Below are positions 2,256 through 21,100 of a DNA stretch of 25,038 nt, piece by piece. The position numbers and the translations under genes are program-made. This stretch comes from a virus: the IMG/VR virus record IMGVR_UViG_3300047564_002836, positions 1-25,038 of that record; one strand, written 5' to 3'. Within the stretch, counting starts at the first letter, position 1. Each line of letters starts with the position of its first letter. The notes beneath the pieces were generated by a model. The model did not search any database, was not told where the DNA came from, and saw only the letters and a program-made list of their open reading frames with translations.

Positions 2256-5200
2256 ATGGCCAAGAGTAATTTGTTAAGTGGTAGGGTCAAACCACAAGAC
2301 CCGAAGAATGTTTCACCTGATAGGTATGAGTTCTTAGACCTTCAGAACGCTGAACCCAATTTTGGGGTTCCGGATTTTAGTGCCTCTCTTTCGGGTTCCC
2401 CAGCCATTTTAGTATCAGATGACCAAGGTAATAGAGGGTTTGTTCGTAGTTTAGATTTAGATAGAGCAAGTGGTGCATTTACTGGTTCTTTTAGTGGTTC
2501 ATCCGAATTAAGTGGTTCATTTACGGGTTCATTCACAGGTTCCGCTGAATTAACAGGTTCACTTTTTGGGTTTGTTGGTGGTAACGCATCTTTAACCGGC
2601 TCATTCACCGGTTCATTTAGTGGTGAGGTAAACGCTGAAACTGTTGTAGCAAATGAAATTACCGCATCTTTCTTTGGTTTAGCAACCCTTAGTGGTTCAT
2701 TCTCTGGTTCATTTGCAGGCGATGTTAGTGGTTCACTCAGCGGTTCATTTTTAGGTGACGGTAGTGGTTCATTTAGTGGTTCATTTCAAGGTGATGGTTC
2801 AGAACTTCGTGATGTAAAAATATTAGAATCTGGTTCGGCAAGAGCTCAAATTTCACCTGATGGTGGATTAAATGTAAATACCAATACAACTATATTAGGA
2901 AACCTTTATGTTTCTGAATCAATTTATGCAGAACAACTTATTGTATCTTATATATCATCATCAATTATTTACTCTTCGGGTTCAAACATTTTTGGTGATG
3001 CGTTAAGTGATAAGCAGGAATTTACGGGTTCTGTTCAAGTACAAACTGAATTAAAAGTAGGTTTTGTAACCGCATCATCATATACTGGTTCATTTACTGG
3101 AGCTTTTCAAGGTGATGGTTCTCAACTAACAAATCTACCCGCATCAGAACAATCAATTAGTGCTACTCGTATTGGAAGCGGTTCAGTAACTGCATCCGCT
3201 GACCCTAATGCTGGAATTCTTATTAATTCAAAACTTCAAGTAACTGGTTCGGCTGAATTTAAAAGTAGTGTATCTGCTTCAATTTTTACTGGTAGTGGTG
3301 CTGGGTTATATGATATACCACGTTCTGCGTTAACCGAAGATGCATTACTATCGGCATTTATAGCGAGTGGTAGTGTAACCGCTTCTGTATCTCCAAACTT
3401 TGGATTCCGAGTTGAATCCGCTCAAAGTGGTTCACAAATTACTGGTTCTGTTAGAGTTAGCGGAAGTATTTTTGTAAGTGGAAGTGGAATCATTCAAGCT
3501 TTTTCTGGTTCATTCTTTAGTGGCAGTGGTGAGGGGTTATCCAACATCCCACGTTCAGCAATTTCAGATTTAGATACATCAAGAATTTTTTCTGGTTCTG
3601 TAACTGCATCTGTATCTCCAAACTTTGGCTTTAGAGTTGAATCATTAAATAGTGGTTCTGAATTTACAGGTTCGGTTGATGTAAGTGGTAGTATTTTTAT
3701 ACCAAGTGGTAGTGGTGTATTTAGTGGTAGTGGTGCGGGTTTATTTGATATACCTCGTTCGGCACTTACCGAAGATGCATTATTATCATCTCTTATTTCA
3801 AGCGGAAGTGTAACTGCGTCTGTATCTCCAAATTTTGGCTTTAGAGTAATATCGGTAGGTAGTGGTTCGCAATTTACAGGTTCAATAAATGCAAGTGGAA
3901 GTGTTTCCTCATCTTTATTTAGAGGAGATGGTAGTGGATTATTTAATATTCCATTATCAGCTCTTTCTGAATTAGTAGAACAGGCATTTCAAATAGCAAC
4001 TGGTTCTGTAACTGCCTCTGTTGATTCTCAAAGAGGATTTGTAGTTAAATCATTTGATAGTGGTTCCGAATTTACCGGCTCTGTTAAAATTAGTGGAAGT
4101 TTAATAGTAGGTGATAATATATCAAGTAGTATTGTTTCTACTAATATATTAAATGTAAACCAAGTATCAGCTTCATTTTTTAGTGGTAGTGGTAGAGATT
4201 TATTTGATATTCCTCGTTCGGCTTTAACTCAAGATGCATTAATTACATCATTAATATCAAGTGGTAGTGTAACCGCATCGGTAGACCCTGCATATGGATT
4301 CCGATTTGAAGGTAAATTAAATACTGCTGGTGAATTTTCTGCACAATTTAGTTCAAGTGTTAAAATATCAGCATCATTGGATGTAAATGGTGGTATCACT
4401 GGTAGTAGTGGACTTTTTGGGTTAATATCGGCATCAAATATATATGGAACAAATATATCTGGTTCATTCGAGGGTGATGGTAGTAGATTAACAAATTTAC
4501 CTGATACTGAATTTGCAGTTCAAGCAAAAAGGATAGCAACTGGTTCATTGACTGCTTCGGTAAAAGAAGCAGTAGGTTTTGTAGTTGAAGGAATTAATGA
4601 TTTCTTCCAACCTGTAAAATCTGAATTTAGTGGTAGTGTATTTGTAAGTAGTAGTATATCCGCATCTTTATTTAGAGGTGATGGTAGTGGGCTATTTAAT
4701 ATTCCATTTTCAGCACTATCGGAAGAATTGGCTAGAATTTCAAGTGGTTCGGTAACCGCATCCGCTATACCAGACCAAGGATTTGTTGTAGAGTCGGCTA
4801 ATAGTGGTTCAACATTTACTGGTAGTTTATTTGTAAGTGGAAATGTTGTAATACCTTCTGGTAGTGGATACTTTAGTGGTAGTGGTGAAGGGTTATTCAA
4901 CATTCCAAGAACGGCACTTACACAAGATGCTCTTATTTCATCATTCATCGCAAGTGGTAGTGTAACCGCTTCAGTATCACCAAACTTTGGATTCCAAGTA
5001 AAATCTGCGGAAAGTGGTTCTGAGTTTACTGGTTCCGTTGATGTTAGTGGCAGTGTAATAGCACAATTTTTTGTTGGTGATGGTTCACAACTTATTAATG
5101 TTCCATCAACGGTAGCACCTCAAATAGCAAGTGGTAGTGTAACCGCATCAGTATCTCCACAATTTGGATTCCGAGTTGAATCAGCAGTTAGTGGTTCTCA

Positions 5201-8200
5201 ACTAACGGGTTCGTTAAGAGTTAGTGGTTCAATATTTTTAGGTAGTGGTTCTCTCTTTAGTGGTAGTGGTGCTGGATTATTTGATATCCCTCGTTCCGCT
5301 ATTTCTGATTTAGATACATCAAGAATCTTCTCTGGTTCGGTAACCGCATCTACTTCACCTAACTTTGGATTTCAAGTATTTTCATTTGAAAGTGGTTCTA
5401 AATTTAGTGGTAGTCTTTACATAGATTCATCATCATTTATAGTAGCGGATGGTAGTAATTTAAGAAATATTCCTCGTTCAGCACTTACTGAAGATGCACT
5501 ACTTTCATCATTCATCACATCAGGTTCAGTAACCGCATCTGTTTCACCTGTATTTGGATTCAGAGTTGAATCTGCTGACGGTGGTTCTGAGTTTAGTGGA
5601 AGTGTTGATATAAGTGGAAGTATATCGGCATCTTTATTCGTTGGAGATGGTAGTGGTTTGTTTAATATCCCACAATCAGCTTTATCAGAAGAGGTATTTA
5701 GAATTGCAAGTGGTAGTGTAACCGCTTCAGTATCACCAACATACGGATTCAGAGTTGAATCAGAAGCTAGTGGTTCTGAATTTACTGGAAGTGTAGATTT
5801 AAGTGGAAGTTTGACTGTAACCGCTGGTATTATTAGTGGTGATGGTAGTGGTTTAACAAACATTCCATTAGCAGCACTTTCTGATGCAACTATAGTAGCA
5901 ACCAAAATATCAAGTGGTTCTGCAACGGCATCAATTGACCCAATAAACGGATTTGTATCAAATGTTGGCGGAAAATTTAGTGGAAGCTTTATTGTATCAT
6001 CATCTGCGAGAGCATTAACTCAATCTGAAATTGGAACATTCTTCTACATTACAAATGATGGGAGTAGTAACTATGTTTTCTCTGGTTCAATTGAAGGAGT
6101 AGACCCAATTTTAACATTAGTAAGAGGTATAACTTACACATTTGATGTTGATGCAAGTGGACACCCATTTTGGTTCCAAACTACCGCTGGTGGATACAAT
6201 AGTAATAACGTAATATTAGATGGTGTAATAAACGCTGGTGATGATAGTGGTTCTATTACTTTTGCATTAACTGGTTCTTTACCAAACACAATTTACTATG
6301 TTTGTCAAAACCACTCTTCAATGGGTGGCACCATTAATATAATTGATGCATTATATCAAGACCCATATATCACATTTATTGGTGATACCCTTATTAGTGG
6401 TGGATTAGAAGTCCAATCATCAGTATCGGCATCAATGTTTACTGGTAGTGGTAGAGGATTATATGATATTCCGTTCTCCGCTCTTTCAGAAGATGCACCA
6501 AGAATTGCAAGTGGTTCGGTAACTGCATCTGTTTCTCCTGATTTGGGATTTGTTGTTCTATCTACGGATAGTGGTTCAACATTTACAGGTTCACTTTTTG
6601 TAAGTGGTAATATAGTAATACCTTCTGGTAGCGGATACTTTAGTGGTAGTGGTGAAGGATTATTCAACATCCCACGTTCAGCTTTAACTCCGGATGCATT
6701 AGTATCCGCTCAGATTGCAAGTGGAAGTGTGACCGCATCAGTAACACCTGATGAAGGATTTAGAGTAATTTCCGTAGATAGTGGTTCACAATTCAGCGGT
6801 TCACTATTTGTAAGTGGTGGAATAATTCAATTAGAAAGTGGTTCATTCTTTAGTGGTAGTGGTGAGGGTTTATTTAACATCCCACGTTCAGCTTTAACTC
6901 CGGATGCATTAGTTGCGGCATTAATTGGTAGTGGTTCAGCAACTGCTTCGGTAAGTAGTGGTGATACATTTATTGTAACAACTGCAAAAACAGGTTCGGA
7001 AATTGGTTCTGAATTTACTGGTTCGGTTTCAGTTAGTGGTTCAATTACCGCATTTACTTTTATTGGTGATGGTTCTCAACTTACAAATGTTCAAGCAGCA
7101 GCATCTCCACTTATCGCAAGTGGTTCGGTAACCGCATCTGCGGAAAGTGCAGAAAGATTCCAAGTAATTACTGCAGCAACTGGTTCGCAAATTGGTTCTG
7201 AATTTACTGGTTCGGTTGAAATAAGTGGAAGTATAAATGTAGTGAGTGGAATTATTAGTGGTGATGGTAGTGGTATTACTAACATTAACATTGCAAACTT
7301 AGCAATTGATTCATCTCGTATCTTCACTGGTTCTGTAACTGCATCGGTAGATAAAGATGGGTTTTTTAGAGTAGAAAACCACGATGAAAATATCAACTTT
7401 GGTTCGGTAACATCTGAATTCAGCGGTTCAGTATATGTATCGGAATCAATTTATGCGAGGTTCTTTGTTGGTGATGGTTCCCAGCTACAAAATGTACAAG
7501 CATCTGCTGCACCAAGAATTGCATCTGGTTCAGTTACTGCATCTGTATCTCCAAACTTTGGATTTGTAGTTCAATCGCCACAAAGCGGTTCTGAATTTAC
7601 TGGTTCGGTTAATATTAGTGGAAGTATATCTGCATCTTTATTTATTGGTGATGGTAGTGGATTATTCAATATCCCACCCGAATCTATTGAAGGTCTTGAG
7701 TTATTCAAAATTAACTCGGGTAGTGGTGTAGCAATTATTGACCCAACTAAATTAGATGTTAATGTACCAATCACCGCAGCTCGTTATGATGGTGATGGTT
7801 CTGGACTTTTCAATATTCCTGCGGAATCACTTGTAGATTTACAATTAGATAGAATTACATCTGGTTCGGTAAGTGCAATTATTTCACCAAATAAAGGATT
7901 AGAAGTAAATACCAAAGTTCAGATATCTCAATCTTTAAATGTTAGTGGTGGGTTATTTGTAACTGGTGGTAACATTGTAGCAGCTAGTGGTTCCGCATAT
8001 TTTGGTGATGGTAGTGGATTGACTAATATCACAATTGCAAATTTAGCATTTGAAACTTCACTCCTACAATCGGGTTCTGCAATTGCACAAATATCACCAA
8101 ATTTAGGATTACAAATCAATATATCAACATCTATTGATGGTAATTTAACTGCAACCACAATTACGGGTTCGGAATTTGTATTTTCACCATTAATAAGTGG

Positions 8201-11200
8201 TGGTTTATTAGGAACCTACACATTCCAAGGTGAAGGACCAACTGCATCTGCGGACTACGATATTCTTAGATACGATGAAGCTAGAGGATACTACGTTCCA
8301 CAACCTGAATTCTCACTAACCGAAACTGTAGCATTTAGTAATGTTTCAACTCTAACAATTGTTCACAATTTAGATATTGAATTCCCAGTAGTTCAGATTT
8401 ATGAAACTGGTTCAATGGCTCAAATTATACCTGATTTGATTGAAACATTAGATGCGGATACAATCAGAGTAACATTTGCAGGAAACACAAGCGGACATGT
8501 AGTAATCGGTAGTGGTGGTTCGGTAATTAGTGGAACCATTCAGGGTGATAGGGTATTGGGAACTGTAAACTCTGCATCATATGCTGTAATAGCTGAAACT
8601 GCAAGAACTGTAACTGGATTTGATTCTGCATCATTAGCAGCATTATCATCATCATTGGGTGATACTACACAATATGTAAGAAATAACCAAACCTCTTCAA
8701 TGGCGGTATTCTCCGCAGTGAGTGCATCTTACGCTTTGACAGCATCTTACGCATTAAATGCTGGAGCTGGTGGAGGTGGAACTGATTTGTTTGTTTACTA
8801 TACCAGTTCATTAGTAAAAACTGAAACTGCTAAAATTAACTTTAGTGGTAGTGGTGTGGTGGTTACTCCATCTGGTTCGGATGGTGTGTTGGTAACAATT
8901 ACTGGTGGTGGTGGAGCTGGTGGAACTTCCGATACCGCATCTTATATTCTTTCATCCGATGTTGATGGTCCATTGGGAATGGATAGTATTACTTTTGCTT
9001 TATCCGCAATTACAGCATCGTATGCATTAAATTCGGCTGGTAGTGATACATCATCATTCCTTAATGTAAACACCGACCAAACTATAAACGCATCATTAAC
9101 CATTAGTGGTTCATTGGGTGTAACTGGTAGTGTTTATTTGGGAAGTTTACCTTCTGGGTCAGCAGATGATGTTGTAGTTTGGAATAGTACAACTAAAAAA
9201 TTAGAAAGAAGAAACATCGCAGCAGCTCAAGGTTCTTCTGGTTCTTCTGGTACTGCCGGTTCGGAAGGAACATCTGGTTCATCTGGAACTTCTGGAACTT
9301 CGGGTTCATCTGGAACTTCTGGAACCAATGGTTCTTCGGGTTCATCTGGTTCTAGCGGTTCAAGCGGAAGTAGTGGTTCTTCGGGTTCGTCTGGTTCAAC
9401 TGGCTCTTCGGGTTCAAGTGGAAGTAGTGGTTCAAGTGGAAGTAGTGGTTCTTCGGGTTCAAGTGGAAGTAGTGGAACTTCTGGAACTTCTGGTTCTTCT
9501 GGTTCAAGTGGAAGTAGTGGAACTTCTGGAACATCAGGTACATCGGGTACATCAGGTTCATCTGGTTCTTCGGGTTCATCTGGTACAACGGGTTCATCTG
9601 GTACAACGGGTTCATCTGGTACAACTGGTTCAAGTGGAACAAGTGGAAGTAGTGGAACCAGCGGAACATCAGGTACTTCAGGTACATCGGGAACTTCTGG
9701 TTCTTCTGGTACAACTGGCTCAGCTGGTACAAGTGGAACTTCAGCAACAAGCGGAACAAGCGGAACCTCTGGTACTTCTGGTACTTCTGGTACTTCTGGT
9801 ACAAGTGGAACCAGTGGTAGTAGTGGTAGTAGTGGAAGTGGTGGAACTTCGGGAACTAGCGGTTCTTCTGGTACAAGTGGAAGTAGTGGAACTTCTGCAA
9901 CCAGTGGTACAAGCGGAACTACTGGTTCTTCGGGTACATCGGCTACAAGTGGAAGTAGTGGAACTTCCGGAACTTCTGGTTCAACTGGTTCTGGTGGTTC
10001 AAGTGGTAGTAGTGGTAGTGGTGGTAGTAGTGGAACATCTGGAACTTCTGGTACAAGTGGAAGTGGAGGAACATCTGGTTCTTCAGGTACTTCAGCAACC
10101 AGCGGTAGTGGTGGTTCGGCTGGTACTAGCGGTAGTGGTGGAACCAGTGGAACATCTGGTTCAAGTGGAACTTCGGGTTCTTCTGGTACGTCTGGTTCAA
10201 GTGGAACTGGAGGTACTGGTGGTTCTGCTGGTACAAGTGGAACTTCGGGAACTTCAGGCACTTCTGGAACATCTGGAACTTCTGGTACAACTGGTTCATC
10301 GGGTACAACTGGTTCAAGTGGTACAACGGGTTCTTCGGGCTCATCTGGTTCAAGTGGAACTTCTGGTAGTGGTGGTACGGCCGGTACTTCGGGTACATCA
10401 GGTTCCGCTGGTTCGTCTGGTACAACTGGTTCAAGTGGTACTACTGGTTCGTCTGGTACAACTGGTTCGAGCGGTACAAGTGGTAGTAGTGGTTCATCAG
10501 GTAGTAGTGGTTCATCGGGTAGTAGTGGTTCATCTGGTACAACAGGTTCATCTGGTACGACTGGTTCAAGTGGAACCAGTGGAAGTAGCGGTTCATCTGG
10601 TACAAGCGGTACTGATGGAACTTCTGGTTCATCTGGTTCATCTGGTTCTTCTGGTACGACCGGTTCATCTGGTTCAAGTGGAAGTTCGGGTACCTCTGGT
10701 TCATCTGGTACAAGCGGAACTGATGGAACATCAGGTTCAAGTGGAAGTAGTGGAAGTAGTGGAACAACAGGTTCATCTGGTACAACTGGTTCAGATGGTT
10801 CATCCGGCTCATCGGGTTCATCTGGAACTTCTGGAACCGATGGTACGAGCGGAAGTAGTGGAACTTCAGGTTCATCTGGCTCAACTGGTTCTGCTGGAAC
10901 AAGCGGCTTAGATGGTACATTCTTCGGAAGTTCAGGCACAAGCGGTAGCAGTGGAAGTAGTGGTACTTCGGGTTCATCTGGTTCCTCTGGTACAACTGGT
11001 TCTGCTGGAACATCTGGTTTAGATGGTACGTTCTTCGGAAGTTCGGGTACTTCTGGTTCAACTGGTACTTCAGGTTCGTCTGGTACAACTGGAACTTCGG
11101 GTACAACTGGAACTTCTGGTTCTTCTGGTTTAGATGGTACATTCTTTGGAAGTTCTGGTACAAGCGGTAGTAGTGGAACTGCTGGAACTTCAGGTTCATC

Positions 11201-13118
11201 TGGAACAACTGGAACTTCGGGTAGTAGTGGTTTAAATGGTACATTCTTTGGAAGTTCGGGTACTTCAGGTTCAACTGGAACCTCTGGTTCATCTGGTTCA
11301 TCTGGTGGTAATGGAACTTCGGGTTCAGCTGGTTCGTCTGGTTCATCGGGTTCTTCTGGCTTAAATGGTACATTCTTTGGAACTTCAGGTACGTCTGGAA
11401 CTTCTGGTAGTTCTGGTTCAACTGGAACTTCTGGTTCAACTGGAACTAGTGGAACAACTGGCTCTGCGGGTACAAGCGGACAGGATGGTACATTCTTTGG
11501 TTCAAGTGGAACTGCTGGTTCTTCTGGAACTTCGGGTTCTTCTGGAACATCATCTACCGCTGGTACTTCTGGTATAACTGGTTCAGCGGGAACAAGTGGT
11601 TTAGATGGTACATTCTTTGGAAGTTCAGGTACAACTGGTACTTCGGGTACAAGCGGAAGTGGAACATCGGGTTCATCTGGTTCTTCGGGTACAAACGGAA
11701 CAACTGGCTCTTCAGGTACAAGCGGACAAGATGGAACCTATTTTGGTTCTTCGGGTTCTTCGGGTACTTCTGGTGCTGGAACCTCTGGTTCTTCTGGTTC
11801 AACTGGAACCGATGGTACATCTGGTACAAGCGGTTTAGATGGTACATTCTTTGGAACTTCTGGAACTTCAGGTTCAGATGGAACAAGTGGAACTTCTGGT
11901 GCTGGAACATCGGGTTCCTCTGGAAGTACTGGGACAAGTGGAACAAGCGGACAGGATGGAACATTCTTTGGAAGTAGTGGAACCTCTGGTTCAAGTGGAA
12001 GTAGTGGTTTAGGTTCAGATGGTACTTCAGGTACTACTGGAACTTCGGGTTCTTCTGGTTTAGATGGAACCTTCTTTGGTTCTTCAGGTACCTCTGGTTC
12101 ATCTGGTACTACTGGAACAACTGGAACTGGTGGTTCGTCTGGAACAACTGGAACTTCGGGTTCTTCTGGTTTAGATGGAACATTCTTTGGTACAAATGGT
12201 TCTTCGGGTACATCGGGTTCAAGCGGTTCATCTGGTTCAAATGGTACTTCTGGAACAACTGGAACTTCGGGTAGTAGTGGTTTGGATGGTACATTCTTTG
12301 GGTCATCGGGTACTGCTGGTTCATCGGGTACAACTGGAACTTCTGGGACAGGTGGTTCATCTGGCACCACAGGTACTTCGGGTTCGTCTGGTTTAGATGG
12401 TACATTCTTTGGGTCATCGGGTACATCATCAACTTCGGGCACTTCGGGTACTTCCGCAAGTGGTACATCAGGTACCTCTGGATTAGGTACAAATGGTTCT
12501 TCTGGTACAAGTGGTGATGGAACTTCTGGTTCATCTGGTACTAATGGTGTAAATGGTACTTCTGGATTGGATGGTACTTCTGGATTAGATGGGAGTTCGG
12601 GTATAAATGGAACCTCTGGTTCATCTGGAGTGAGTGGAACTGCTGGTAGTGGTGGTTCGTCCGGTACATCGTTAAACGTAAACGGAACTACCGATAATGG
12701 TGTCCTTACATTTATCAACTCAAGCGGACAATTACAAGTAGAACCTAACCTCACATTTGATGGTTCAGTATTGACTGTAACCTCACATGTATCACCTGTA
12801 ACTTATAGAGAAACATACTCAAACTTAGGAACGGGCGGTTCAGTAACGGTAGATTTATCAACCGCAAACAACTTTACGAGAACTGCGAATGGAAACTCAA
12901 CATTCACATTCTCAAATCCTCCATCAGGTAAAGCATTTGGTTTTACATTGGCCCTTACAAACGGAGGTGCGTACACTATCACTTGGCCAGGTAGTGTAAA
13001 TTGGGCTAGTGGAACAGCACCACTATTGACTTCAAGCGGAGTTGATATTTTGGTGTTCTATACTTATGATGGAGGAACCTCATACTACGGATTCCTCGTA
13101 GGTAGAGATATGAGTTAA
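2256..13118 (+). CDS. Giant modular tail fibre protein with Gly-X-Y rod
   Basis: A single uninterrupted frame of 3620 residues starting MAKSNLLSGRVKPQDPKN. Modules in order: a short N-terminal segment; GSFTG/GSFSG repeats (about 72-185); about 24 beta-repeat units of some 76 residues (about 190-1980) built on SGSVTASVSPNFGFRV, GSEFTGSVDVSGS and GDGSGLFNIPRSAL; a cupredoxin-like domain among these units (about 1253-1365); an HNLDIEFPVVQIYE domain (about 2020-2090); SASYALTASYALN segments; a Gly-X-Y region (2326-3472); and a C-terminal beta domain with GGAYTITWPGSVNW and VDILVFYTYDGG (about 3473-3620). The C-terminal module and repeat styles are typical of marine phage tail fibres. It most likely forms a long, probably trimeric, host-contact fibre; oligomeric state and receptor cannot be seen. 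The only cysteine I find is in the cupredoxin-like domain. The spacing from AGGAA to the ATG is long (15 bases). Confidence 0.85.
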   Translation: MAKSNLLSGRVKPQDPKNVSPDRYEFLDLQNAEPNFGVPDFSASLSGSPAILVSDDQGNRGFVRSLDLDRASGAFTGSFSGSSELSGSFTGSFTGSAELTGSLFGFVGGNASLTGSFTGSFSGEVNAETVVANEITASFFGLATLSGSFSGSFAGDVSGSLSGSFLGDGSGSFSGSFQGDGSELRDVKILESGSARAQISPDGGLNVNTNTTILGNLYVSESIYAEQLIVSYISSSIIYSSGSNIFGDALSDKQEFTGSVQVQTELKVGFVTASSYTGSFTGAFQGDGSQLTNLPASEQSISATRIGSGSVTASADPNAGILINSKLQVTGSAEFKSSVSASIFTGSGAGLYDIPRSALTEDALLSAFIASGSVTASVSPNFGFRVESAQSGSQITGSVRVSGSIFVSGSGIIQAFSGSFFSGSGEGLSNIPRSAISDLDTSRIFSGSVTASVSPNFGFRVESLNSGSEFTGSVDVSGSIFIPSGSGVFSGSGAGLFDIPRSALTEDALLSSLISSGSVTASVSPNFGFRVISVGSGSQFTGSINASGSVSSSLFRGDGSGLFNIPLSALSELVEQAFQIATGSVTASVDSQRGFVVKSFDSGSEFTGSVKISGSLIVGDNISSSIVSTNILNVNQVSASFFSGSGRDLFDIPRSALTQDALITSLISSGSVTASVDPAYGFRFEGKLNTAGEFSAQFSSSVKISASLDVNGGITGSSGLFGLISASNIYGTNISGSFEGDGSRLTNLPDTEFAVQAKRIATGSLTASVKEAVGFVVEGINDFFQPVKSEFSGSVFVSSSISASLFRGDGSGLFNIPFSALSEELARISSGSVTASAIPDQGFVVESANSGSTFTGSLFVSGNVVIPSGSGYFSGSGEGLFNIPRTALTQDALISSFIASGSVTASVSPNFGFQVKSAESGSEFTGSVDVSGSVIAQFFVGDGSQLINVPSTVAPQIASGSVTASVSPQFGFRVESAVSGSQLTGSLRVSGSIFLGSGSLFSGSGAGLFDIPRSAISDLDTSRIFSGSVTASTSPNFGFQVFSFESGSKFSGSLYIDSSSFIVADGSNLRNIPRSALTEDALLSSFITSGSVTASVSPVFGFRVESADGGSEFSGSVDISGSISASLFVGDGSGLFNIPQSALSEEVFRIASGSVTASVSPTYGFRVESEASGSEFTGSVDLSGSLTVTAGIISGDGSGLTNIPLAALSDATIVATKISSGSATASIDPINGFVSNVGGKFSGSFIVSSSARALTQSEIGTFFYITNDGSSNYVFSGSIEGVDPILTLVRGITYTFDVDASGHPFWFQTTAGGYNSNNVILDGVINAGDDSGSITFALTGSLPNTIYYVCQNHSSMGGTINIIDALYQDPYITFIGDTLISGGLEVQSSVSASMFTGSGRGLYDIPFSALSEDAPRIASGSVTASVSPDLGFVVLSTDSGSTFTGSLFVSGNIVIPSGSGYFSGSGEGLFNIPRSALTPDALVSAQIASGSVTASVTPDEGFRVISVDSGSQFSGSLFVSGGIIQLESGSFFSGSGEGLFNIPRSALTPDALVAALIGSGSATASVSSGDTFIVTTAKTGSEIGSEFTGSVSVSGSITAFTFIGDGSQLTNVQAAASPLIASGSVTASAESAERFQVITAATGSQIGSEFTGSVEISGSINVVSGIISGDGSGITNINIANLAIDSSRIFTGSVTASVDKDGFFRVENHDENINFGSVTSEFSGSVYVSESIYARFFVGDGSQLQNVQASAAPRIASGSVTASVSPNFGFVVQSPQSGSEFTGSVNISGSISASLFIGDGSGLFNIPPESIEGLELFKINSGSGVAIIDPTKLDVNVPITAARYDGDGSGLFNIPAESLVDLQLDRITSGSVSAIISPNKGLEVNTKVQISQSLNVSGGLFVTGGNIVAASGSAYFGDGSGLTNITIANLAFETSLLQSGSAIAQISPNLGLQINISTSIDGNLTATTITGSEFVFSPLISGGLLGTYTFQGEGPTASADYDILRYDEARGYYVPQPEFSLTETVAFSNVSTLTIVHNLDIEFPVVQIYETGSMAQIIPDLIETLDADTIRVTFAGNTSGHVVIGSGGSVISGTIQGDRVLGTVNSASYAVIAETARTVTGFDSASLAALSSSLGDTTQYVRNNQTSSMAVFSAVSASYALTASYALNAGAGGGGTDLFVYYTSSLVKTETAKINFSGSGVVVTPSGSDGVLVTITGGGGAGGTSDTASYILSSDVDGPLGMDSITFALSAITASYALNSAGSDTSSFLNVNTDQTINASLTISGSLGVTGSVYLGSLPSGSADDVVVWNSTTKKLERRNIAAAQGSSGSSGTAGSEGTSGSSGTSGTSGSSGTSGTNGSSGSSGSSGSSGSSGSSGSSGSTGSSGSSGSSGSSGSSGSSGSSGSSGTSGTSGSSGSSGSSGTSGTSGTSGTSGSSGSSGSSGTTGSSGTTGSSGTTGSSGTSGSSGTSGTSGTSGTSGTSGSSGTTGSAGTSGTSATSGTSGTSGTSGTSGTSGTSGTSGSSGSSGSGGTSGTSGSSGTSGSSGTSATSGTSGTTGSSGTSATSGSSGTSGTSGSTGSGGSSGSSGSGGSSGTSGTSGTSGSGGTSGSSGTSATSGSGGSAGTSGSGGTSGTSGSSGTSGSSGTSGSSGTGGTGGSAGTSGTSGTSGTSGTSGTSGTTGSSGTTGSSGTTGSSGSSGSSGTSGSGGTAGTSGTSGSAGSSGTTGSSGTTGSSGTTGSSGTSGSSGSSGSSGSSGSSGSSGTTGSSGTTGSSGTSGSSGSSGTSGTDGTSGSSGSSGSSGTTGSSGSSGSSGTSGSSGTSGTDGTSGSSGSSGSSGTTGSSGTTGSDGSSGSSGSSGTSGTDGTSGSSGTSGSSGSTGSAGTSGLDGTFFGSSGTSGSSGSSGTSGSSGSSGTTGSAGTSGLDGTFFGSSGTSGSTGTSGSSGTTGTSGTTGTSGSSGLDGTFFGSSGTSGSSGTAGTSGSSGTTGTSGSSGLNGTFFGSSGTSGSTGTSGSSGSSGGNGTSGSAGSSGSSGSSGLNGTFFGTSGTSGTSGSSGSTGTSGSTGTSGTTGSAGTSGQDGTFFGSSGTAGSSGTSGSSGTSSTAGTSGITGSAGTSGLDGTFFGSSGTTGTSGTSGSGTSGSSGSSGTNGTTGSSGTSGQDGTYFGSSGSSGTSGAGTSGSSGSTGTDGTSGTSGLDGTFFGTSGTSGSDGTSGTSGAGTSGSSGSTGTSGTSGQDGTFFGSSGTSGSSGSSGLGSDGTSGTTGTSGSSGLDGTFFGSSGTSGSSGTTGTTGTGGSSGTTGTSGSSGLDGTFFGTNGSSGTSGSSGSSGSNGTSGTTGTSGSSGLDGTFFGSSGTAGSSGTTGTSGTGGSSGTTGTSGSSGLDGTFFGSSGTSSTSGTSGTSASGTSGTSGLGTNGSSGTSGDGTSGSSGTNGVNGTSGLDGTSGLDGSSGINGTSGSSGVSGTAGSGGSSGTSLNVNGTTDNGVLTFINSSGQLQVEPNLTFDGSVLTVTSHVSPVTYRETYSNLGTGGSVTVDLSTANNFTRTANGNSTFTFSNPPSGKAFGFTLALTNGGAYTITWPGSVNWASGTAPLLTSSGVDILVFYTYDGGTSYYGFLVGRDMS
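2470..2812 (+). repeat. GSFTG/GSFSG short protein repeats at the fibre N-terminus
   Basis: The translated stretch holds at least ten GSF(T/S)G or GSL-type units, such as TGSFTGSFTGSAELTGS and SGSFSGSFAGDVSGSLS, with the larger spacers FVGGNAS and EVNAETVVANEITASFF. The short protein at 14516-14845 carries the same TGSFTGSFTGSFKG pattern. A beta-solenoid or trimeric beta-spiral is a reasonable structural guess. Confidence 0.75.
2823..8200 (+). repeat. About 24 beta-repeat units in the fibre shaft
   Basis: Each unit starts with a (S/T)GSVTAS motif, continues with SPxFGFRVESAxSGSEFTGS and a VSGSI strand, then (G/S)GDGSGLFNIPRSALSE, and ends in an RI or LI pair before the next unit. Mean spacing is about 228 bases (76 residues), ranging from about 48 to 115 residues except where the cupredoxin-like domain adds more. 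The first unit contains the YISSSIIYSSGSNIFGD segment seen also in the second giant fibre (near 15775-15830). End units (from about 7720) are more divergent, suggesting internal units expanded or were homogenised. Confidence 0.85.
6012..6347 (+). other. Cupredoxin-like domain within the fibre shaft
   Basis: Residues about 1253-1365 break the shaft repeat pattern. They carry ILTLVRGITYTFDVDASGHP, then SGSITFALTGSLPNTIYYVC and QNHSSMGGTINI. His1303, Cys1350, His1353 and Met1356 stand where type 1 copper ligands occur in cupredoxins; the C-x2-H-x2-M spacing is that of amicyanin. Whether copper is bound is unknown. From memory, similar YYxCxxHxxMGG stretches occur in some other marine phage structural proteins. 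Confidence 0.7.
8313..8520 (+). other. HNL-type beta domain of phage fibres
   Basis: Residues about 2020-2088 contain LTIVHNLDIEFPVVQIYE, then MAQIIPDLIETLDADTIRV and TFAGNTSGHVVIG. From memory this pattern (HNL, then V-Q-V-Y, I-P-D, T-V-T-F, S-G-x-V-V-I) is a common small module in tail fibre and baseplate-attached proteins. It ends the shaft repeats and precedes the segment with ASYALTASYALN. Confidence 0.6.
9231..12671 (+). repeat. 1147-residue Gly-X-Y rod, Ser/Thr-rich and proline-free
   Basis: Residues 2326-3472 place Gly at nearly every third position with Ser, Thr or Ala between (GSSGTSGSSGTTG style). No proline was seen. Occasional Gly-to-Ala or Ser changes keep the register, as in GTSATSG at about 9738, 9891, 9937 and 10089. 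Three parts are visible: a nearly pure part (9231-10904), a part with regular DGTFFG breaks (10905-12410), and a tail with GLDGTSG, GINGTSG and GDGTSG. It could form a collagen-like triple helix or a polyglycine-II bundle; sequence alone does not decide. Confidence 0.9.
10905..12410 (+). repeat. 14 modules of about 37 residues marked by (D/N)GT(F/Y)FG
   Basis: The break motif starts at 10905, 11016, 11127, 11229, 11358, 11478, 11598, 11724, 11832, 11949, 12057, 12168, 12279 and 12390. Five of the 13 spacings are exactly 111 bases (37 residues); the others are 102-129. The usual form is G(L/Q)(D/N)GTFFG, with one TYF copy at 11724. Each break adds one residue to the Gly-X-Y register, and modules starting at 11598, 11724, 11832 and 11949 also carry a one-residue deletion (GSG, GAG or GLG) that restores it. 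Confidence 0.9.
12672..13115 (+). other. C-terminal beta domain of the first giant fibre
   Basis: Residues about 3473-3620 start with the junction LNVNGTTDNGVLTFINSSG and PNLTFDGSVLTVTS, then SGKAFGFTLALTNGGAYTIT and a VDILVFYTYDGGTSYYGF end. The junction is repeated after the Gly-rich rod of the second giant fibre (GTTDNGVITL, NLTFNGTLLTVTG), so the same adapter follows both rods. The TITWPGSVNW and VDILVF parts are familiar from tail fibre C-termini in other phages. Confidence 0.7.
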
Positions 13119-13135
13119 TAATAGTTATAGAATAT

Positions 13136-14026
13136 ATGGCAACAATAGCAAGAAGATTAGTCCCATCAGAAGAAGGTGCAGCAGTTCCATTCCAAATTGG
13201 AGTAACGGTAACCGCAGGTCAAACCTTTACACTTCCAATTGCGGACTATGGTGCACTGGTTCCCAACTTTGTGGTGAATTGGGGTGATGGAAATGAAAGT
13301 ACAGTTACATCATCAACCGATGCGGATAGAATACACACTTATGCATCATCTGGAACCTATACAATAACCATCTCTGGTTTGATGCCATCATTCAAAGTGA
13401 ATAACAATTCAGCTATTAGATTACTCATAACTTCAATTATTGATTTTGGTAGAGTGGGATTGAGATTGTTGGACTTTTATGGATGTTCTAGCATTACATC
13501 AATTCCTGCATCCGGTACAATGGCAGCTGGATATCAAGGTTTGAATGAGATTGTATCATTTGCTGGTTTTATGAGGGGAACCTCAATATCAACAATTCCA
13601 TCGGATTTGTTTCAATATGCAACCAGAGTATCCGTTTTTTCCGATATTTTCTCATTTACAACAATTACTTCTATTCCTTCGGGATTATTTGATAATTGTG
13701 GTGATGCAACTTCATTTGCATCGGCATTCAACCAATGTACTTCATTGAGTTCATATCCATCGGATTTGTTTGATAATTGTCCAAATGTGGTAAACTTTTC
13801 ATCAACATTCCGAAACTGCCGTTCACTAACCGCACCACTTCAATTTACCAATAATACTGCGGTAACTGTATTTACTAATGTGTACAATATGGTTTCTTCT
13901 ACAAACTCAATGGCTGGAACTGCACCTGAAATTTGGTTAAGAGTTCCAACTCCAGTGGGAACCGATGCATTTAACAATTGTTTTGGATTATCAAACTACG
14001 CAGCAATACCTTCTAACTTCAAATAA
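13136..14026 (+). CDS. PKD-like plus BspA-type leucine-rich repeat protein, possible adhesin
   Basis: A 296-residue protein starting MATIARRLVPSEEG, 17 bases after the giant fibre gene, with no clear ribosome site. Residues about 21-82 look like a PKD-type beta domain: VNWGDG at 48-53, then RIHTYASSGTYTITISG. Residues about 115-296 hold BspA-like (DUF285-like) leucine-rich repeats, for example CSSITSIPAS, STIPSDLF, ITSIPSGLFDNC, SFASAFNQCTSLSSYPSD and FSSTFRNCRSLTAP. Such repeats are known in surface proteins that bind other cells or matrix. No signal peptide is visible, as expected for a virion part. The place between a fibre and a chaperone gene suggests a tip or accessory host-recognition protein; this is inference. 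Confidence 0.75.
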   Translation: MATIARRLVPSEEGAAVPFQIGVTVTAGQTFTLPIADYGALVPNFVVNWGDGNESTVTSSTDADRIHTYASSGTYTITISGLMPSFKVNNNSAIRLLITSIIDFGRVGLRLLDFYGCSSITSIPASGTMAAGYQGLNEIVSFAGFMRGTSISTIPSDLFQYATRVSVFSDIFSFTTITSIPSGLFDNCGDATSFASAFNQCTSLSSYPSDLFDNCPNVVNFSSTFRNCRSLTAPLQFTNNTAVTVFTNVYNMVSSTNSMAGTAPEIWLRVPTPVGTDAFNNCFGLSNYAAIPSNFK

Positions 14027-14028
14027 AG

Positions 14029-14475
14029 ATGATGTATTTAAGAATTAAAGATGGAGTTATTACTTATCCATATTCAGTTCAACAATTGAAAGTGGATGAG
14101 TATAATACATCCTTTCCAAAAGATTTGACAACTCAAATATTAGAAGAGTGGGGAGTTTATAAAGTTAGCAGAACTCCAAAACCAAACGATTACACAAAAA
14201 CAATAACCGAAGGAACTCCACAATTAGTAGATGGTTCTTATGTTCAGATTTGGGATGAAGTGGATGCAACTCAATCGGAAATTGATGCAAGAATAGAAGA
14301 TAAGTGGGAAGAGGTTAGACTATTGAGAAACGAACTACTTTTAGAGTGTGATTGGACCCAATTGGCGGATATCCCAACCGAAACAAAAGAGTTGTGGCAA
14401 ACTTATAGACAGGGGTTAAGAGATATAACATCACAATCAAATCCATTCTCAATTGTATGGCCTGTAAAACCATAA
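14029..14475 (+). CDS. Tail fibre/tail assembly chaperone-like protein (Phage_tail_APC type)
   Basis: A 148-residue protein starting two bases after the previous stop, so probably translated with it; the second ATG at 14032 is an equally possible start. The N-terminal part has DGVITYPYSVQQLKVDEYNT and EEWGVYKV. The C-terminal half has the signature VRLLRNELLLECDWTQLADI, then ELWQTYRQGLRDI and NPFSIVWPVKP. This matches the pattern (R-N-x-L-L, D-W-T-Q, W-x-x-Y-R-Q-x-L-R-D-I) of phage tail assembly chaperones, which in many phages follow the fibre gene they serve. Here it may serve the fibre or the LRR protein just upstream; the client is inferred. Confidence 0.8.
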   Translation: MMYLRIKDGVITYPYSVQQLKVDEYNTSFPKDLTTQILEEWGVYKVSRTPKPNDYTKTITEGTPQLVDGSYVQIWDEVDATQSEIDARIEDKWEEVRLLRNELLLECDWTQLADIPTETKELWQTYRQGLRDITSQSNPFSIVWPVKP

Positions 14476-15188: not shown

Positions 15189-15199
15189 AGTTCTGATTG

Positions 15200-18100
15200 A
15201 TGAGTATAGGTAAAAGTCCTAATGGTTTAAATCAGATTTCCGCTAGCAAGATTGAATTATTTGTTAGCGGAAGTTCTGTTGTAGGGTTTACATCCGAAAG
15301 TGTAAACATAGTTGGTAAGGTATCTGCATCAGCAGTTCAAACATATGAAATTGGAACTCCACAATCCCAAACTTTGGATATTAAATCCAATACTAAAATT
15401 ACAGGTTCTCTAAATGTATCTTCATCTCTAAATGCAGCAACTGCATTTATAAGTGGAACGGTATCCGCTTCATTTTTTAAAGGAGATGGTTCTCAAATAT
15501 TTAACATTCCAGCTTCAGCAATTGGTGATATTGATAGATTAAAATCGGGTTCAGTAGAAGCTGTTCTTTCACCAAATAAAGGTTTAGAAGTTAAAACCGG
15601 TGTAACTGTAAAAGATTTCTTAATTGTAACGGGTTCATCTCAACTCAAAGGTAATGTAAGAGCTGAAGATGGAGTTGCTGTAACTGGAAGTTTGGGAGTT
15701 TCTGGAAACGCTAATATTGTTGGTAATCTAAATGTAGGTGGAAAGATTACTGCAACTGAAATTCACACAACTTACATTTCATCATCGGTATTATTTTCAT
15801 CTGGTTCAAACAAATTAGGTGATAATGTATTAGATATTCAACAAATTACTGGTTCTTTAAGAATTAGTGGTAGTGTATTTGTTGATGGAAACACAATTCC
15901 AACGGATGAAACTACAAATGAAGTATTGGTAATTAACCAAACTACAGGTAGAATTAGTAGAAGATTTGCAGCTGCAACTTCTGGTACATCTGGTACATCG
16001 GGTAGTAGTGGTTCTTCTGGTTCAAGCGGAAGTTCTGGTAGTGGTGGTACAAGCGGTAGTGGTGGAACATCTGGTTCAGGTGGTACAAGCGGAACATCTG
16101 GTTCTGGTGGTACATCTGGTAGTGGAGGTACTTCTGGCTCAAGCGGTAGTAGTGGTACTTCTGGTAGTGGGGGTTCTTCTGGTACTTCTGGTAGTGGAGG
16201 TTCAAGCGGAACAAGCGGAAGTGGTGGTTCATCTGGTACAACGGGTACTGGTGGTACTTCTGGTAGTGGTGGAACCTCTGGTTCGGGTGGTTCATCTGGA
16301 ACAACTGGTTCAGCAGGTACGAGCGGAAGTGGTGGAACTTCAGGTAGTGGTGGTACAAGTGGAACTGGTGGTTCTGCTGGTACAAGCGGTAGTGGTGGAA
16401 CCTCTGGTTCTACTGGAACCGCTGGTTCATCTGGTAGTGGTGGAACATCTGGAACTGGTGGTACAAGCGGAAGTGGTGGAACCTCTGGTAGTGGCGGTAC
16501 ATCTGGTATAACTGGTGCTGGTGGTACTGCTGGTACAAGCGGTAGTGGGGGTACGAGCGGAACTTCTGGTTCGGGTGGTACTTCTGGAACCTCTGGTTCG
16601 GGTGGTACTTCGGGTGTAAGTGGAGCTGGTGGTTCGGTTGGTACATCTGGTACTTCAGGTAGTGGTGGTACAAGCGGAACATCTGGTTCTGGTGGTACAT
16701 CTGGTAGTGGTGGTACATCTGGTAGTGGTGGTACTTCGGGTACATCATCAACCGCAGGTACGGGTGGTACGGCTGGTACTTCGGGTAGTGGTGGTACAAG
16801 CGGAACTTCTGGTTCAGGTGGTACTTCTGGTACAAATGGAACCGCTGGTAGTGGAGGTACGACTGGTTCTGCTGGTACATCTGGTAGTGGTGGTACGACT
16901 GGTTCTGCTGGTACATCTGGTAGTGGCGGTACTTCAGCAACCGCAGGTAGTGGTGGTACTTCGGGAACTGGAGGAACCTCCGGAACTGGTGGTTCTTCGG
17001 GTACAAGAGGAACCGCTGGTAGTGGTGGTACAAGTGGAACTGGTGGTACATCGGGCACTGGGGGGACATCTGGTAGTGGGGGTTCTTCGGGTACAGCAGG
17101 AACCGCTGGTAGTGGTGGTACTTCGGGTACATCTGGTAGTGGAGGAACTTCAGGTACTTCTGGTAGTGGTGGTACATCGGGTAGTGGTGGTACATCTGGT
17201 ACATCTGGTTTATTATCTCTTACTGGAACAACCGATAATGGTGTAATTACTCTTAATGGAACTGCTCCAAACGCAACTGTTGAGCAAAATCTTACTTTCA
17301 ATGGAACTTTATTGACAGTAACTGGTAATGCAACCATTACTGGTGATTTGACCGTAAGTGGAACTACAACATATATTAATACAACAACTCTTAATATTGG
17401 TGATAACATCATCACCCTAAATGCGGATGTAACTGGAACACCATCTCAAAATGCTGGTATTGAAATTGAAAGAGGAACTTCCGCAAATGTTTCATTCTAT
17501 TGGAATGAATCAACCGATAGATGGTATGCGGATAACACATTGGAAGTAAATGGTAATGTAATTTTAAGTGGTACAATTGATACGGGTCAAGGTGCTACTG
17601 AAGTTTACCTAATGAACCAAAACATTAGAACCACAGACAATGTTCAATTTAGTACTGTTAATGCATCAAACTTTAGAGATGGAACTGGTACATATAATGT
17701 AAACTTAGGTAGTGGTGGTTCGGAAGGTAGAGGTTTAGTTGCGGGTTATAGTGGTGGCTCATATGGTGGTATTGGTTACAACATCAGACATACTGGAACT
17801 GGTGCAACTTATACATCACCATTGGGAGATACTGCAACATATTTGTTATTTAATCAAGGATTTACTTTTTACAATGATGGTGGTACAACCGCTGGTAGAA
17901 CCACATCTCTTACTCAAATAGGTAGATTAGATAATGTAGGTACGTTTACAATTCCTGGTAATTTAGTAGCAGCTCAAGTTAATACTGGACAAGGTTTGAC
18001 AGAGGTTTATTTAATGGACCAAAATGTTCGTACAACTGATGGTGTAACCTTCGCAACAGTAAACACTGGGCAGGGTGCTAATGAGTTGTACGCTATGAAC

Positions 18101-21100
18101 CAAAATGTTAGAACTACCGATAATGTAACATTTGCTAATATAACAGGTAACAACTTTATATTACCACAAAATCCAGTTGGAACAACTTATGGTAATGGTG
18201 TATCAACTACACCATCATATATGATTTCTCAAACTGTTGGTGATAACGATGGTTGGAGATTGTATGGTGAAACATCTACAACTAATGCCGTTAGAATGGT
18301 ATTTGAATTGGTTGATGATATTGAAACTGCATTTACGGACCAATGGGTATTCAGAAATAAACAAACATATTCATCTTATACGGCTAGAAACGAATTCCAA
18401 ATTTCTGGTGATGGTGATGCGCAGGCTCGTTCATCAATGAGAGCACCAATTTTCTATGATTCAGCGGATACAAACTATTATATTGATGCTAACTCAAATT
18501 CAAGATTAGTAAATCTTGGTTTGGGTGGTGTAACTCCTGATTTGAGATTAAGTGTGAGTGGTGATATCCATATGAGTGGATACATCTATCAAGGTGGAAC
18601 TGCTGGTGTTGTTAATAGTTGGGGTTCAAGAACTTTGGTAAGTAGTGGTAACTATGTATCAAATGCTCGTTCTTTCCGATTTGATAACGTAGGATATGGT
18701 TCAACTTGGGCATTAGATATAAACTCTAGCGGAAATGTTATAGCTAGTGTTGATATGAGAGCTCCAATCTTTTATGACCAAAACAATACTGGATATTATT
18801 TAGACCCAAATGGTACATCAAATCTAGTTAATGCTGACTTTAACGGTACTGTAACTTTAAGAAGTGGTAATGAATTAAGATTTTATACATCTGCAGGAAG
18901 TTTAAGAGGATATATACAGGCAACTGATACGGATGATAATCACTTAATAATTGCAACCTCTGGTGGTGAAGATATTGTATTTAAAGATGGTGGAGTTGCT
19001 GGTAGTGTTAATATGGTTATTAGAGGTAATGGTACTGTTCAGGCATATGATGACTTTAGAGCACCAATTTTCTACGATTCCGCAGATACTGGATATTATG
19101 CAAACTTAAATGGATTCTCACAACAAAGATGGCTTCGTTTATTAGGTGATTGGGCTTCAAGTGGAGTACATTCAGAAACATTAACAATCAGAGGAACATA
19201 TCCATCCATTACTTTAAGAGCAACAAATGGTTCTCAACCTGTGTGGTTATTCCACAACGATGCTGGTTCAACTTTATACTTCTACAACCAACAGGGTTCG
19301 GTAGATGGTGAATCTTGGGATTGGAGAGGATATGTAAATAATAATGGTACGGTTGGTGCAAGAACTGATATGAGAGCACCAATTTATTATGATTCTGCTG
19401 ATACTGGGTATTATGTAGACCTTAATACAACTGGAACTGCTGGTAGATTTAGAGGAGAAATTCTTATAGGTCCAAATACTTCTGGAAGGTATACTAGAAT
19501 TGGTGGAAATGGCGGTGCAACCGATGAGGCAACACTATCATCATCAAATGGAAACTTACACATTGATAGTAAAATGGGTAATGGTTTATATTTAAACCAC
19601 TATTCCAATGGAGATATCTATATGAATAATGGTGGTGGATATGCATTCTCATATACTTCATTAAGAGCGCCAATTTTCTACAACTATTCTGATACAGCAT
19701 ATTATTTAGATGCGGATTCATATTCACGTCTTAATAGAATAGTATTAAACCAAGCAAGAGTTGATTCAAGTAGATACCCAATTGGACATACCGATGTGGG
19801 TGAGGCAATATTTGAGTTTGACCCAACTTGGACAAATGACCAACTTCAAGCATACTTTAATAGTGGTAACGTAAGTTGGGTGGCTGATTCATCTGCACCT
19901 GGTGGATATGCGATATCTATTGCTGGTGCTGTAAACGTAGGTGGTGTTTATGGTAGTGGTTTCCCATACATAGCGGTTGACCAAGACGATGTATTCTATA
20001 TGGAGGTTTGGATAAAGAGTGTATCTGGAACAAACACCCACTATATGGGTTCTATTGATTTTAACCACAACTTTAGTTCATTGGGTGGTAACCCTGGTTC
20101 ATTTGGTTATTGGGTAATGTCAAACTCAAATCCTGGCAGTAGCTGGACAAAATATAGTGGATATATTGGTGGATTTGGTAACTCAACGGGTCAATTTGAA
20201 ACTGGAACTAAATATTGGACTCCACAAGCACTATTCAACTACACTGGTGGTGGAACATCATACATTAGTGGTTGGAAGGTAATTAAAGTAAACGTACCTG
20301 GTAATAGAACATTCAGAGGTAATGTAACGGCACCTATCTACTACGATTCAAACCAAACTTACTTTGGTGATTTTGGTTCAGAAATCAGAATGCCATACGC
20401 TAATGGTGGGACAATGAGATTCAGAACCAATACCCATTGGGATTCTCAATCTGGTATTGATTTGATTGGCGGAGCTGGTGAATTCAGAATGAGTTCGGAT
20501 AGTGGTAACTTAAACCTAAGAATAGATGGTTGGATTATAGGATATGATTATGTTCAATCATTAGGGGCAGTTTATGGTACAATTTACTATGACCAAAATG
20601 ATACATCATACTACGGAGATTTTAATTCACAAAGTAGATTAAATACTTTAAGAACAGCAGGATATGTTGTAGTTGGTGGAACATTTGAAAACAATGCATA
20701 TAATTCAACTACTGGTGCACGATTAATGTTTGGTGGTGGAGATGGTGATGCTCAAAGTAATTACTATATCGGAACCAATCTTAATAACTATAATGGTAAT
20801 TACAACAAATTAGACCTTCGTTGGCACACCGGTATCCGTATGGGTGCTCAACCTTCATATGGTGGTATCCGTATTTTTAATAATGAAGATTTAGATTCTC
20901 GTATTGCATCATTTGGTGAAACAGATGCAAACGTAAGAATTGATAATATATTGTATGTATTTGGTGATGCAAGAGCACCAATTTTCTATGATTATAACGA
21001 TACAACTTATAGAGTTGACCCTAATGGTAATTCAACATTAGTAAACACATTTGCTAGTAGATACTTTACTCTTTACAATAACTTTGGTGATACGATAAAC

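Follow-up and report, generated by a model that had tools for sequence, protein, structure and literature searches.

The window, which is the whole of virus record IMGVR_UViG_3300047564_002836 (25,038 bases), is probably a genome fragment, and its plus strand contains an ORF at 2256..13118 for a giant tail-fibre protein of 3620 amino acids. The frame at 1-1296 resembles short tail fibre, baseplate-wedge, and other structural proteins of cyanophages (138 records, none of which covers 80% of the frame), and the N-terminus of the fibre resembles proteins of Synechococcus phages S-PRM1 and S-CAM9 (6 records). From these resemblances, we identify the record as tail DNA from a relative of T4-like cyanophages. 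Directly after the nearly cysteine-free fibre, an open frame at 13136-14026 has six cysteines, weak PKD matches, and a match to PHROG 9915. Further genes encode a tail assembly chaperone-like protein (14029-14475; PF16778, E 1.9e-16), which also matches tail fiber assembly PHROGs, and a second giant protein (15197-25036), whose 3280 residues include no cysteine and whose ORF runs off the record.

The fibre consists of a repeat shaft, a cupredoxin-like domain, more shaft, a long Gly/Ser/Thr collagen-like region, and a C-terminal end domain, where the regions distal to the shaft were named by reading the sequence. The shaft unit is mostly 59-77 amino acids long: spacings measured with two shaft motifs fall in this range in 13 of 18 and 16 of 22 cases. 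A sequence-only reading of this DNA had proposed that a cupredoxin-like domain at 6012-6347 (fibre residues 1253-1364) breaks the shaft repeats. Indeed, the largest spacing in both motif lists (199 and 202 residues) is the one that holds the domain, which stretches a single shaft unit to some 200 residues; the remaining long gaps (up to 161 and 127 residues) are sites where the simple motif went undetected. By its first and last strands in a structural model, the domain spans residues 1262-1363 (6039..6344, plus strand). It is preceded on the same strand by a shaft segment (SGSATAS...FSGSFIVSSS) and linker at 5913..6038, and followed by a linker and resumed shaft (DALYQDPYITFIGDT ... GSGRGLYDIP) at 6345..6470. 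Similar segments flank the domain in four other loci (L047, L072, L061, and L075).

Four residues of the domain, all encoded on the plus strand, are predicted to bind copper, and each is present in the translation as had been claimed. They are His1303 (6162..6164), the first ligand, which belongs to a GHPF motif; Cys1350 (6303..6305), the thiolate ligand; His1353 (6312..6314), the second histidine; and Met1356 (6321..6323), the axial ligand. A residue count over all 3620 amino acids bears out the statement that Cys1350 is the only cysteine of the fibre. Histidine occurs six times (1303, 1353, 1709, 2037, 2081, and 3511) and methionine seven times (1, 1356, 1394, 2054, 2149, 2242, and 3619). 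From composition alone, the chance of finding His at +3 and Met at +6 of the only Cys is about 3e-6, although this figure is post hoc. The C-x2-H-x2-M spacing is, as proposed, that of amicyanin, in which the corresponding residues are Cys92, His95, and Met98 (available part of PMC12723479).

The cupredoxin assignment is strongly supported by profile matches to blue copper proteins, a confident AlphaFold2 model, and Foldseek matches. A profile of 40 copies of the domain was searched against PDB sequences at E<=10 and matched 37 distinct sequences, 32 of which are copper proteins. Rusticyanin is the best match (E 9e-4), and nitrite reductases, plastocyanin, amicyanin, azurin, and auracyanin are also found; the five others are LptD (twice), two antibody chains, and a putative adhesin. 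In the rusticyanin alignment, GHPF is aligned with GH-x-F, and the Cys, second His, and Met are paired with those of YYVCQIPGHAATGM. With amicyanin (1aac), profile positions 69-98 pair with chain positions 75-104, and since the two stretches are of equal length, the Cys, His, and Met fall on amicyanin residues 92, 95, and 98. By this profile, the domain is homologous to known members of the cupredoxin superfamily, and His1303, Cys1350, His1353, and Met1356 supply the superfamily's His...Cys-x(n)-His-x(n)-Met ligand set.

AlphaFold2, given an alignment of 87 sequences, predicts a cupredoxin fold with a pLDDT of 90.7 and a pTM of 0.84. Model residue n corresponds to fibre residue 1252+n, and the model has eight strands (E10-15, E21-25, E34-37, E41-47, E53-56, E79-85, E93-98, and E105-111), so the prediction is a Greek-key beta-sandwich of about eight strands, like those of the cupredoxin superfamily. 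His51 (His1303) lies directly before strand 53-56, Cys98 (Cys1350) ends strand 93-98, and the loop that precedes strand 105-111 contains His101 and Met104. Judged by strand positions and sequence register, this arrangement would fit a type 1 copper site.

Comparisons of the model with solved structures point in the same direction. Foldseek found 35 PDB matches at E<=0.001, and the 50 matches listed, from 1329 at E<=10, are all copper proteins, with moderate TM-scores among those listed (0.40-0.58 by query length). Among them is an azurin with an altered ligand loop, given in the entry title as CAAHAAM, which has the same C-x2-H-x2-M length. VIA matched 96 residues of the model to Hyphomicrobium nitrite reductase (Z 10.2, 3.0 A) and 96 to rusticyanin 2cal (Z 10.0, 2.3 A). 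Many further VIA matches are first domains of two-domain laccases. These laccase domains are not known to have a T1 site, and a shared fold alone is therefore no proof of a copper site. Fold and ligand set together are secure as far as sequence and prediction allow. Proteins of Pithovirus LCPAC and Marseillevirus LCMAC in BFVD, most of them named "beta-sandwich", have a similar predicted fold (E 4e-10 to 2e-7).

Searches with single sequences gave weak results. No Pfam match of the window copy reaches the cut-off; the best is PF25489, at 14.9 bits versus a cut-off of 27 (E 0.026). Pfam matches of 40 single members are weak, mixed, and all below cut-offs: Copper-bind appears in nine (best 0.0023), PF25489 in four, and DUF4352, which is not a copper family, in three, with the best single E-value (1.1e-4). 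The weak match seen most often, in 11 of the 40 members, is the NCBIfam amicyanin family (best E 7e-4). NCBIfam gives no match up to E 1 for the window copy, which therefore does not pass the curated amicyanin model TIGR02657. A phmmer search with a single copy also matched an antifreeze repeat protein (query 24-94; E 7e-6 for the whole sequence), which we judged compositional because its best stretch has an i-Evalue of 4.1 and ends before the Cys, and because the profile search does not list it.

Conservation of the ligands was assessed in several sets of copies. The first comprises 106 unique copies, most of which came from scans that used the ligand motifs as seeds, and 104 of the 106 keep all four ligands. 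One copy (L117) is scored as lacking the first His, but a His adjoins the column, and we read its absence as a probable alignment shift. From this set, 86 copies were combined with the window copy into an alignment of 87 non-redundant sequences, leaving out a duplicate of the window copy, L117, L118, the ligandless second copy in L046, copies shorter than 80 amino acids, and copies more than 92% identical to one kept. Only six of its 93 well-filled columns are invariant, namely His51, Pro52, Tyr96, Cys98, His101, and Met104; six columns drawn at random would include all four ligands with a chance of about 5e-6. These copies are as little as 27% identical to the window copy, and still keep the full quartet.

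This invariance is partly built in, since the scans were seeded on the ligand motifs. We therefore also consider a scan in which the ligands were masked. It found 191 stretches, of which 160 encode relatives; the best 80 of the 160 were kept, some of them on contigs already in the seeded set. The masked profile located 85 domains in them, and all 54 unique ones contain GHPF and CxxHxxM. The masked set is free of seeding bias but closer in kind, at 54-85% identity to the query. Taken together, the 87-copy alignment and the masked set lead us to reject a chance origin of the motif, and homologues do not freely lose the His, Cys, and Met residues, which are kept beyond chance.

The same data bear on the idea that the domain is a plain decorative beta-sandwich whose motif persists only through recent descent. 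Other phage structural proteins do carry Ig-like decoration. However, identity falls to 27% while the codons of the Cys and both His ligands vary synonymously; for example, among the 86 rows readable once L050 is set aside, His1303 is encoded by CAT in 59 and CAC in 27, and Cys1350 by TGT in 53 and TGC in 33. With every unique copy from the ligand-masked search also retaining the motifs, we regard mere decoration as very improbable. Because such divergent copies keep the four ligands, and do so in tail proteins, a bound metal, most likely copper, would seem to be part of the domain's function.

Exceptions to ligand retention are few. A motif count over 131 copies in 115 ORFs found the quartet in 130; the second copy in L046 has none of the four, and no other relative of it was found in the viral collection at the sensitivity used. 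A profile scan of six complete phage genomes gave 17 places at E<=0.05. All four ligands are present in 14, one of which has Gln in place of the Pro after His, and the three places without the quartet are the weakest of the 17 (E 1.2e-3 to 0.017). The weak ligandless relatives (L138, L139, L141, and the second L046 copy) reside on phages that also carry ligand-bearing copies. Their existence suggests that the metal site is dispensable to the fold, and therefore makes ligand retention elsewhere more telling.

These relatives also help to weigh a structural role, in which another metal, such as zinc, or a packed empty site would stabilise the loop with no copper chemistry. Free copper is scarce in the cytoplasm, the compartment in which phage proteins fold, and this counts against copper and favours a structural lock of this kind. 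Fibres are also known to carry structural metals, as iron in T4 gp37 (available part of PMC11705849). However, the ligandless relatives, few and weak as they are, suggest that the fold would need no ligands, and the T1 quartet is in register with that of blue copper proteins, which would not be expected if a structural metal were freely chosen. We consider a lock of this sort quite unlikely.

Among solved proteins, the closest core is not that of amicyanin, on whose spacing the sequence-only reading had drawn, but that of rusticyanin; only the ligand loop has the amicyanin length. Rusticyanin, a free electron carrier and not a fibre module, leads both the profile search and the Foldseek search (E 3e-5), and VIA aligns it over 96 residues at Z 8.9-10.0 and 2.2-2.4 A, with its GH-x-F and YYVCQ stretches in register with the phage domain. 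Its ligand loop is longer (Cys138, His143, and Met148; available part of PMC517927), whereas that of the phage domain is C-x2-H-x2-M, and it has Ser86 after its His (PMC12723479) where the phage domain has Pro. Amicyanin, by contrast, shares the short loop, and its Cys92, His95, and Met98 pair with the phage ligands, but its best row in the profile search (E 0.065) scores below rusticyanin's. Amicyanin also has Asn54 after His53, whereas Pro occupies this position in 87 of 87 aligned phage copies, and it serves as an electron carrier from methylamine dehydrogenase (available part of PMC12723479). The phage site thus combines a rusticyanin-like core (GH-x-F and YYVCQ), an amicyanin-length loop, and a Pro after the first His. 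A His-Pro pair starts the T1 site in multicopper oxidases such as CueO. Because Pro follows the first His, the second sphere of the phage site is predicted to differ from the second spheres of both amicyanin and rusticyanin. In amicyanin, the N54S substitution raised the Em (available part of PMC12723479), and by analogy the copper potential of the Pro-bearing phage site may be unusual.

Such a site could have a redox use, shuttling or buffering electrons at the host surface and thereby triggering or protecting the tail. The site might, for example, sense the redox state, quench superoxide, or exchange electrons with a protein of the host surface. The invariance of all four ligands in 87 copies, including the axial Met, is what an electron-transfer site would be expected to show, and the Pro might raise the potential, as extrapolated from amicyanin N54S (PMC12723479). 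However, where neighbouring genes were tested, their family matches are tail proteins or unknown, and none is redox-related. We also know of no partner protein or electron path, and we view redox use as unlikely.

The domain is a widespread module of cyanophage tail proteins and is not peculiar to one fibre. A tblastn search with it matched 353 phage records, named for Synechococcus (267), Cyanophage (53), Prochlorococcus (23), Marine (6), and one each for Actinomycetia, uncultured, Phage, and Pelagibacter; 343 of the 353 have cyanophage names, and no enteric phage is named among them. One scan of viral contigs yielded 45 loci from 80 stretches, and another at least 547 relatives from 599 stretches, of which the best 80 were kept. 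No match to the domain was found in the plasmid search. A scan of cellular genome contigs, whose only seed held the ligand motif, gave four loci from 22 stretches, too few for a statement on cellular origin. Two copies (L115 and L116) occur in contigs binned as Ilumatobacteraceae and Euryarchaeota MAGs, and these contigs may be phage DNA.

The window copy matches PHROG 677 (baseplate wedge tail fiber protein connector) at C-terminal positions 306-411 of 412 (E 4e-23), so that the end of this gp9-like protein of cyanophages is the same domain. In phage Syn9, the domain ends a 406-amino-acid gp9/gp10-like baseplate protein with all four ligands kept, whereas in the window it is inside a 3620-residue fibre. 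The Syn9 protein has 1455 matching records, 287 of which cover at least 80% of it. Among the matches listed, all 12 full-length ones are cyanophages, and enteric T4-like phages match only about the first 40-60 residues. With only cyanophages among the full-length matches listed and no enteric name in the tblastn results, the domain belongs, within the collection searched, to aquatic lineages.

Other contexts likewise mark the domain as a movable module. Of the 131 copies, 34 have a collagen-like run on each side, 18 form the C-terminal tip of a collagen-like chain, 11 are C-terminal without a collagen-like run, and five have such a run on one side only. Shafts of the SGSVTAS/GSGxGL type, as in the window fibre, contain 16, and the other 47 match none of these classes. 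In total, 29 copies are at a C-terminal tip and 57 adjoin collagen-like runs. Cysteine is sparingly used around the module: in 115 distinct ORFs, including the window's own, many of them near-identical and some cut by locus ends, there are 135 Cys in 12,977 residues inside the domains and 172 in 93,169 residues elsewhere. All 10 ORFs of at least 2000 amino acids have as many Cys as domains and none outside them (three in L061; two in L047, L052, L072, L075, L106, and L107; one in L051, L053, and L104). Shorter ORFs often have further Cys, up to 19 in L060 and L063.

Metal sites in tail fibres, including those of marine phages, have been proposed before, in the form of HxH motifs in T4 gp37 and alterophage R22Y (available part of PMC11705849). 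Those motifs bind octahedral iron (PMC11705849), whereas the phage domain would use Cys, His, His, and Met in a cupredoxin fold; the six His of the window fibre include no HxH pair. The published proposal for iron is parallel to the idea of a metal Trojan horse (PMC11705849), in which fibre copper would be offered to, or mistaken by, a copper-uptake or copper-binding receptor on the host surface. Placement at the C-terminal tip in 29 of 131 copies counts in favour of such a lure, but the window domain is within the shaft and not at a tip. T1 sites hold copper tightly, which also counts against this idea, and we know of no host receptor. We consider this explanation decidedly unlikely.

Given the sequence, the family, the invariant ligands, the predicted fold, and the module contexts described here, our first choice for the role of copper is display at the site of host contact, with redox use, a lock by another metal, and a copper Trojan horse coming next. 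In this preferred explanation, residues about 1262-1363 would fold as a cupredoxin domain in which His1303, Cys1350, His1353, and Met1356 make up a type 1-like metal site. Each chain would hold one copper ion, or three per fibre level if the fibre is trimeric. T4-like aquatic phages would plug this display module into fibrous tail proteins, where it would lie within a shaft, separate or terminate collagen-like runs, or form the C-terminal end of a gp9-like baseplate protein. Where the virion touches its host, copper would give the module a rigid, metal-dependent contact surface, and the fold would not suffice without the metal. That copper is the metal at the predicted site is very probable, whereas the trimer, the exposure, and the role in host contact are tentative. 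We judge the explanation as a whole, in which a modular display domain with a type 1-like site uses copper to make the host-contact face, to be somewhat probable.

The cupredoxin fold and its site are already known; in the open papers searched, we found no report of the two serving phage fibres and baseplates as a conserved module, although automatic database annotation may exist. The word "cupredoxin" is absent from the text of a paper on the A-1(L) tail (PMC10966104). In the available parts of PMC2984593 and PMC3037559, plastocyanin is treated as the petE gene, and PMC3037559 reports a proteomic study of the virions of three cyanophages. Should the site hold copper, blue-copper domains would be present on the host-touching parts of an abundant group of phages from marine and fresh waters, the idea of metal use by phage fibres would widen from iron to copper, and many "hypothetical protein" and gp9-connector C-termini would gain meaning. 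Hundreds of cyanophages and other aquatic phages might even carry several copper-loaded type 1 sites per virion, on baseplate and fibre proteins, as a redox- or copper-gated switch for host contact that works in infection, which we regard as doubtful. Such a switch would make the virion a copper metalloprotein assembly and tie infection to copper or redox conditions in the water or at the host surface.

A further copy is at the C-terminus of a protein of Synechococcus phage S-H9-1 that is annotated as a subtilisin-like serine protease (L123, 4312-6318).
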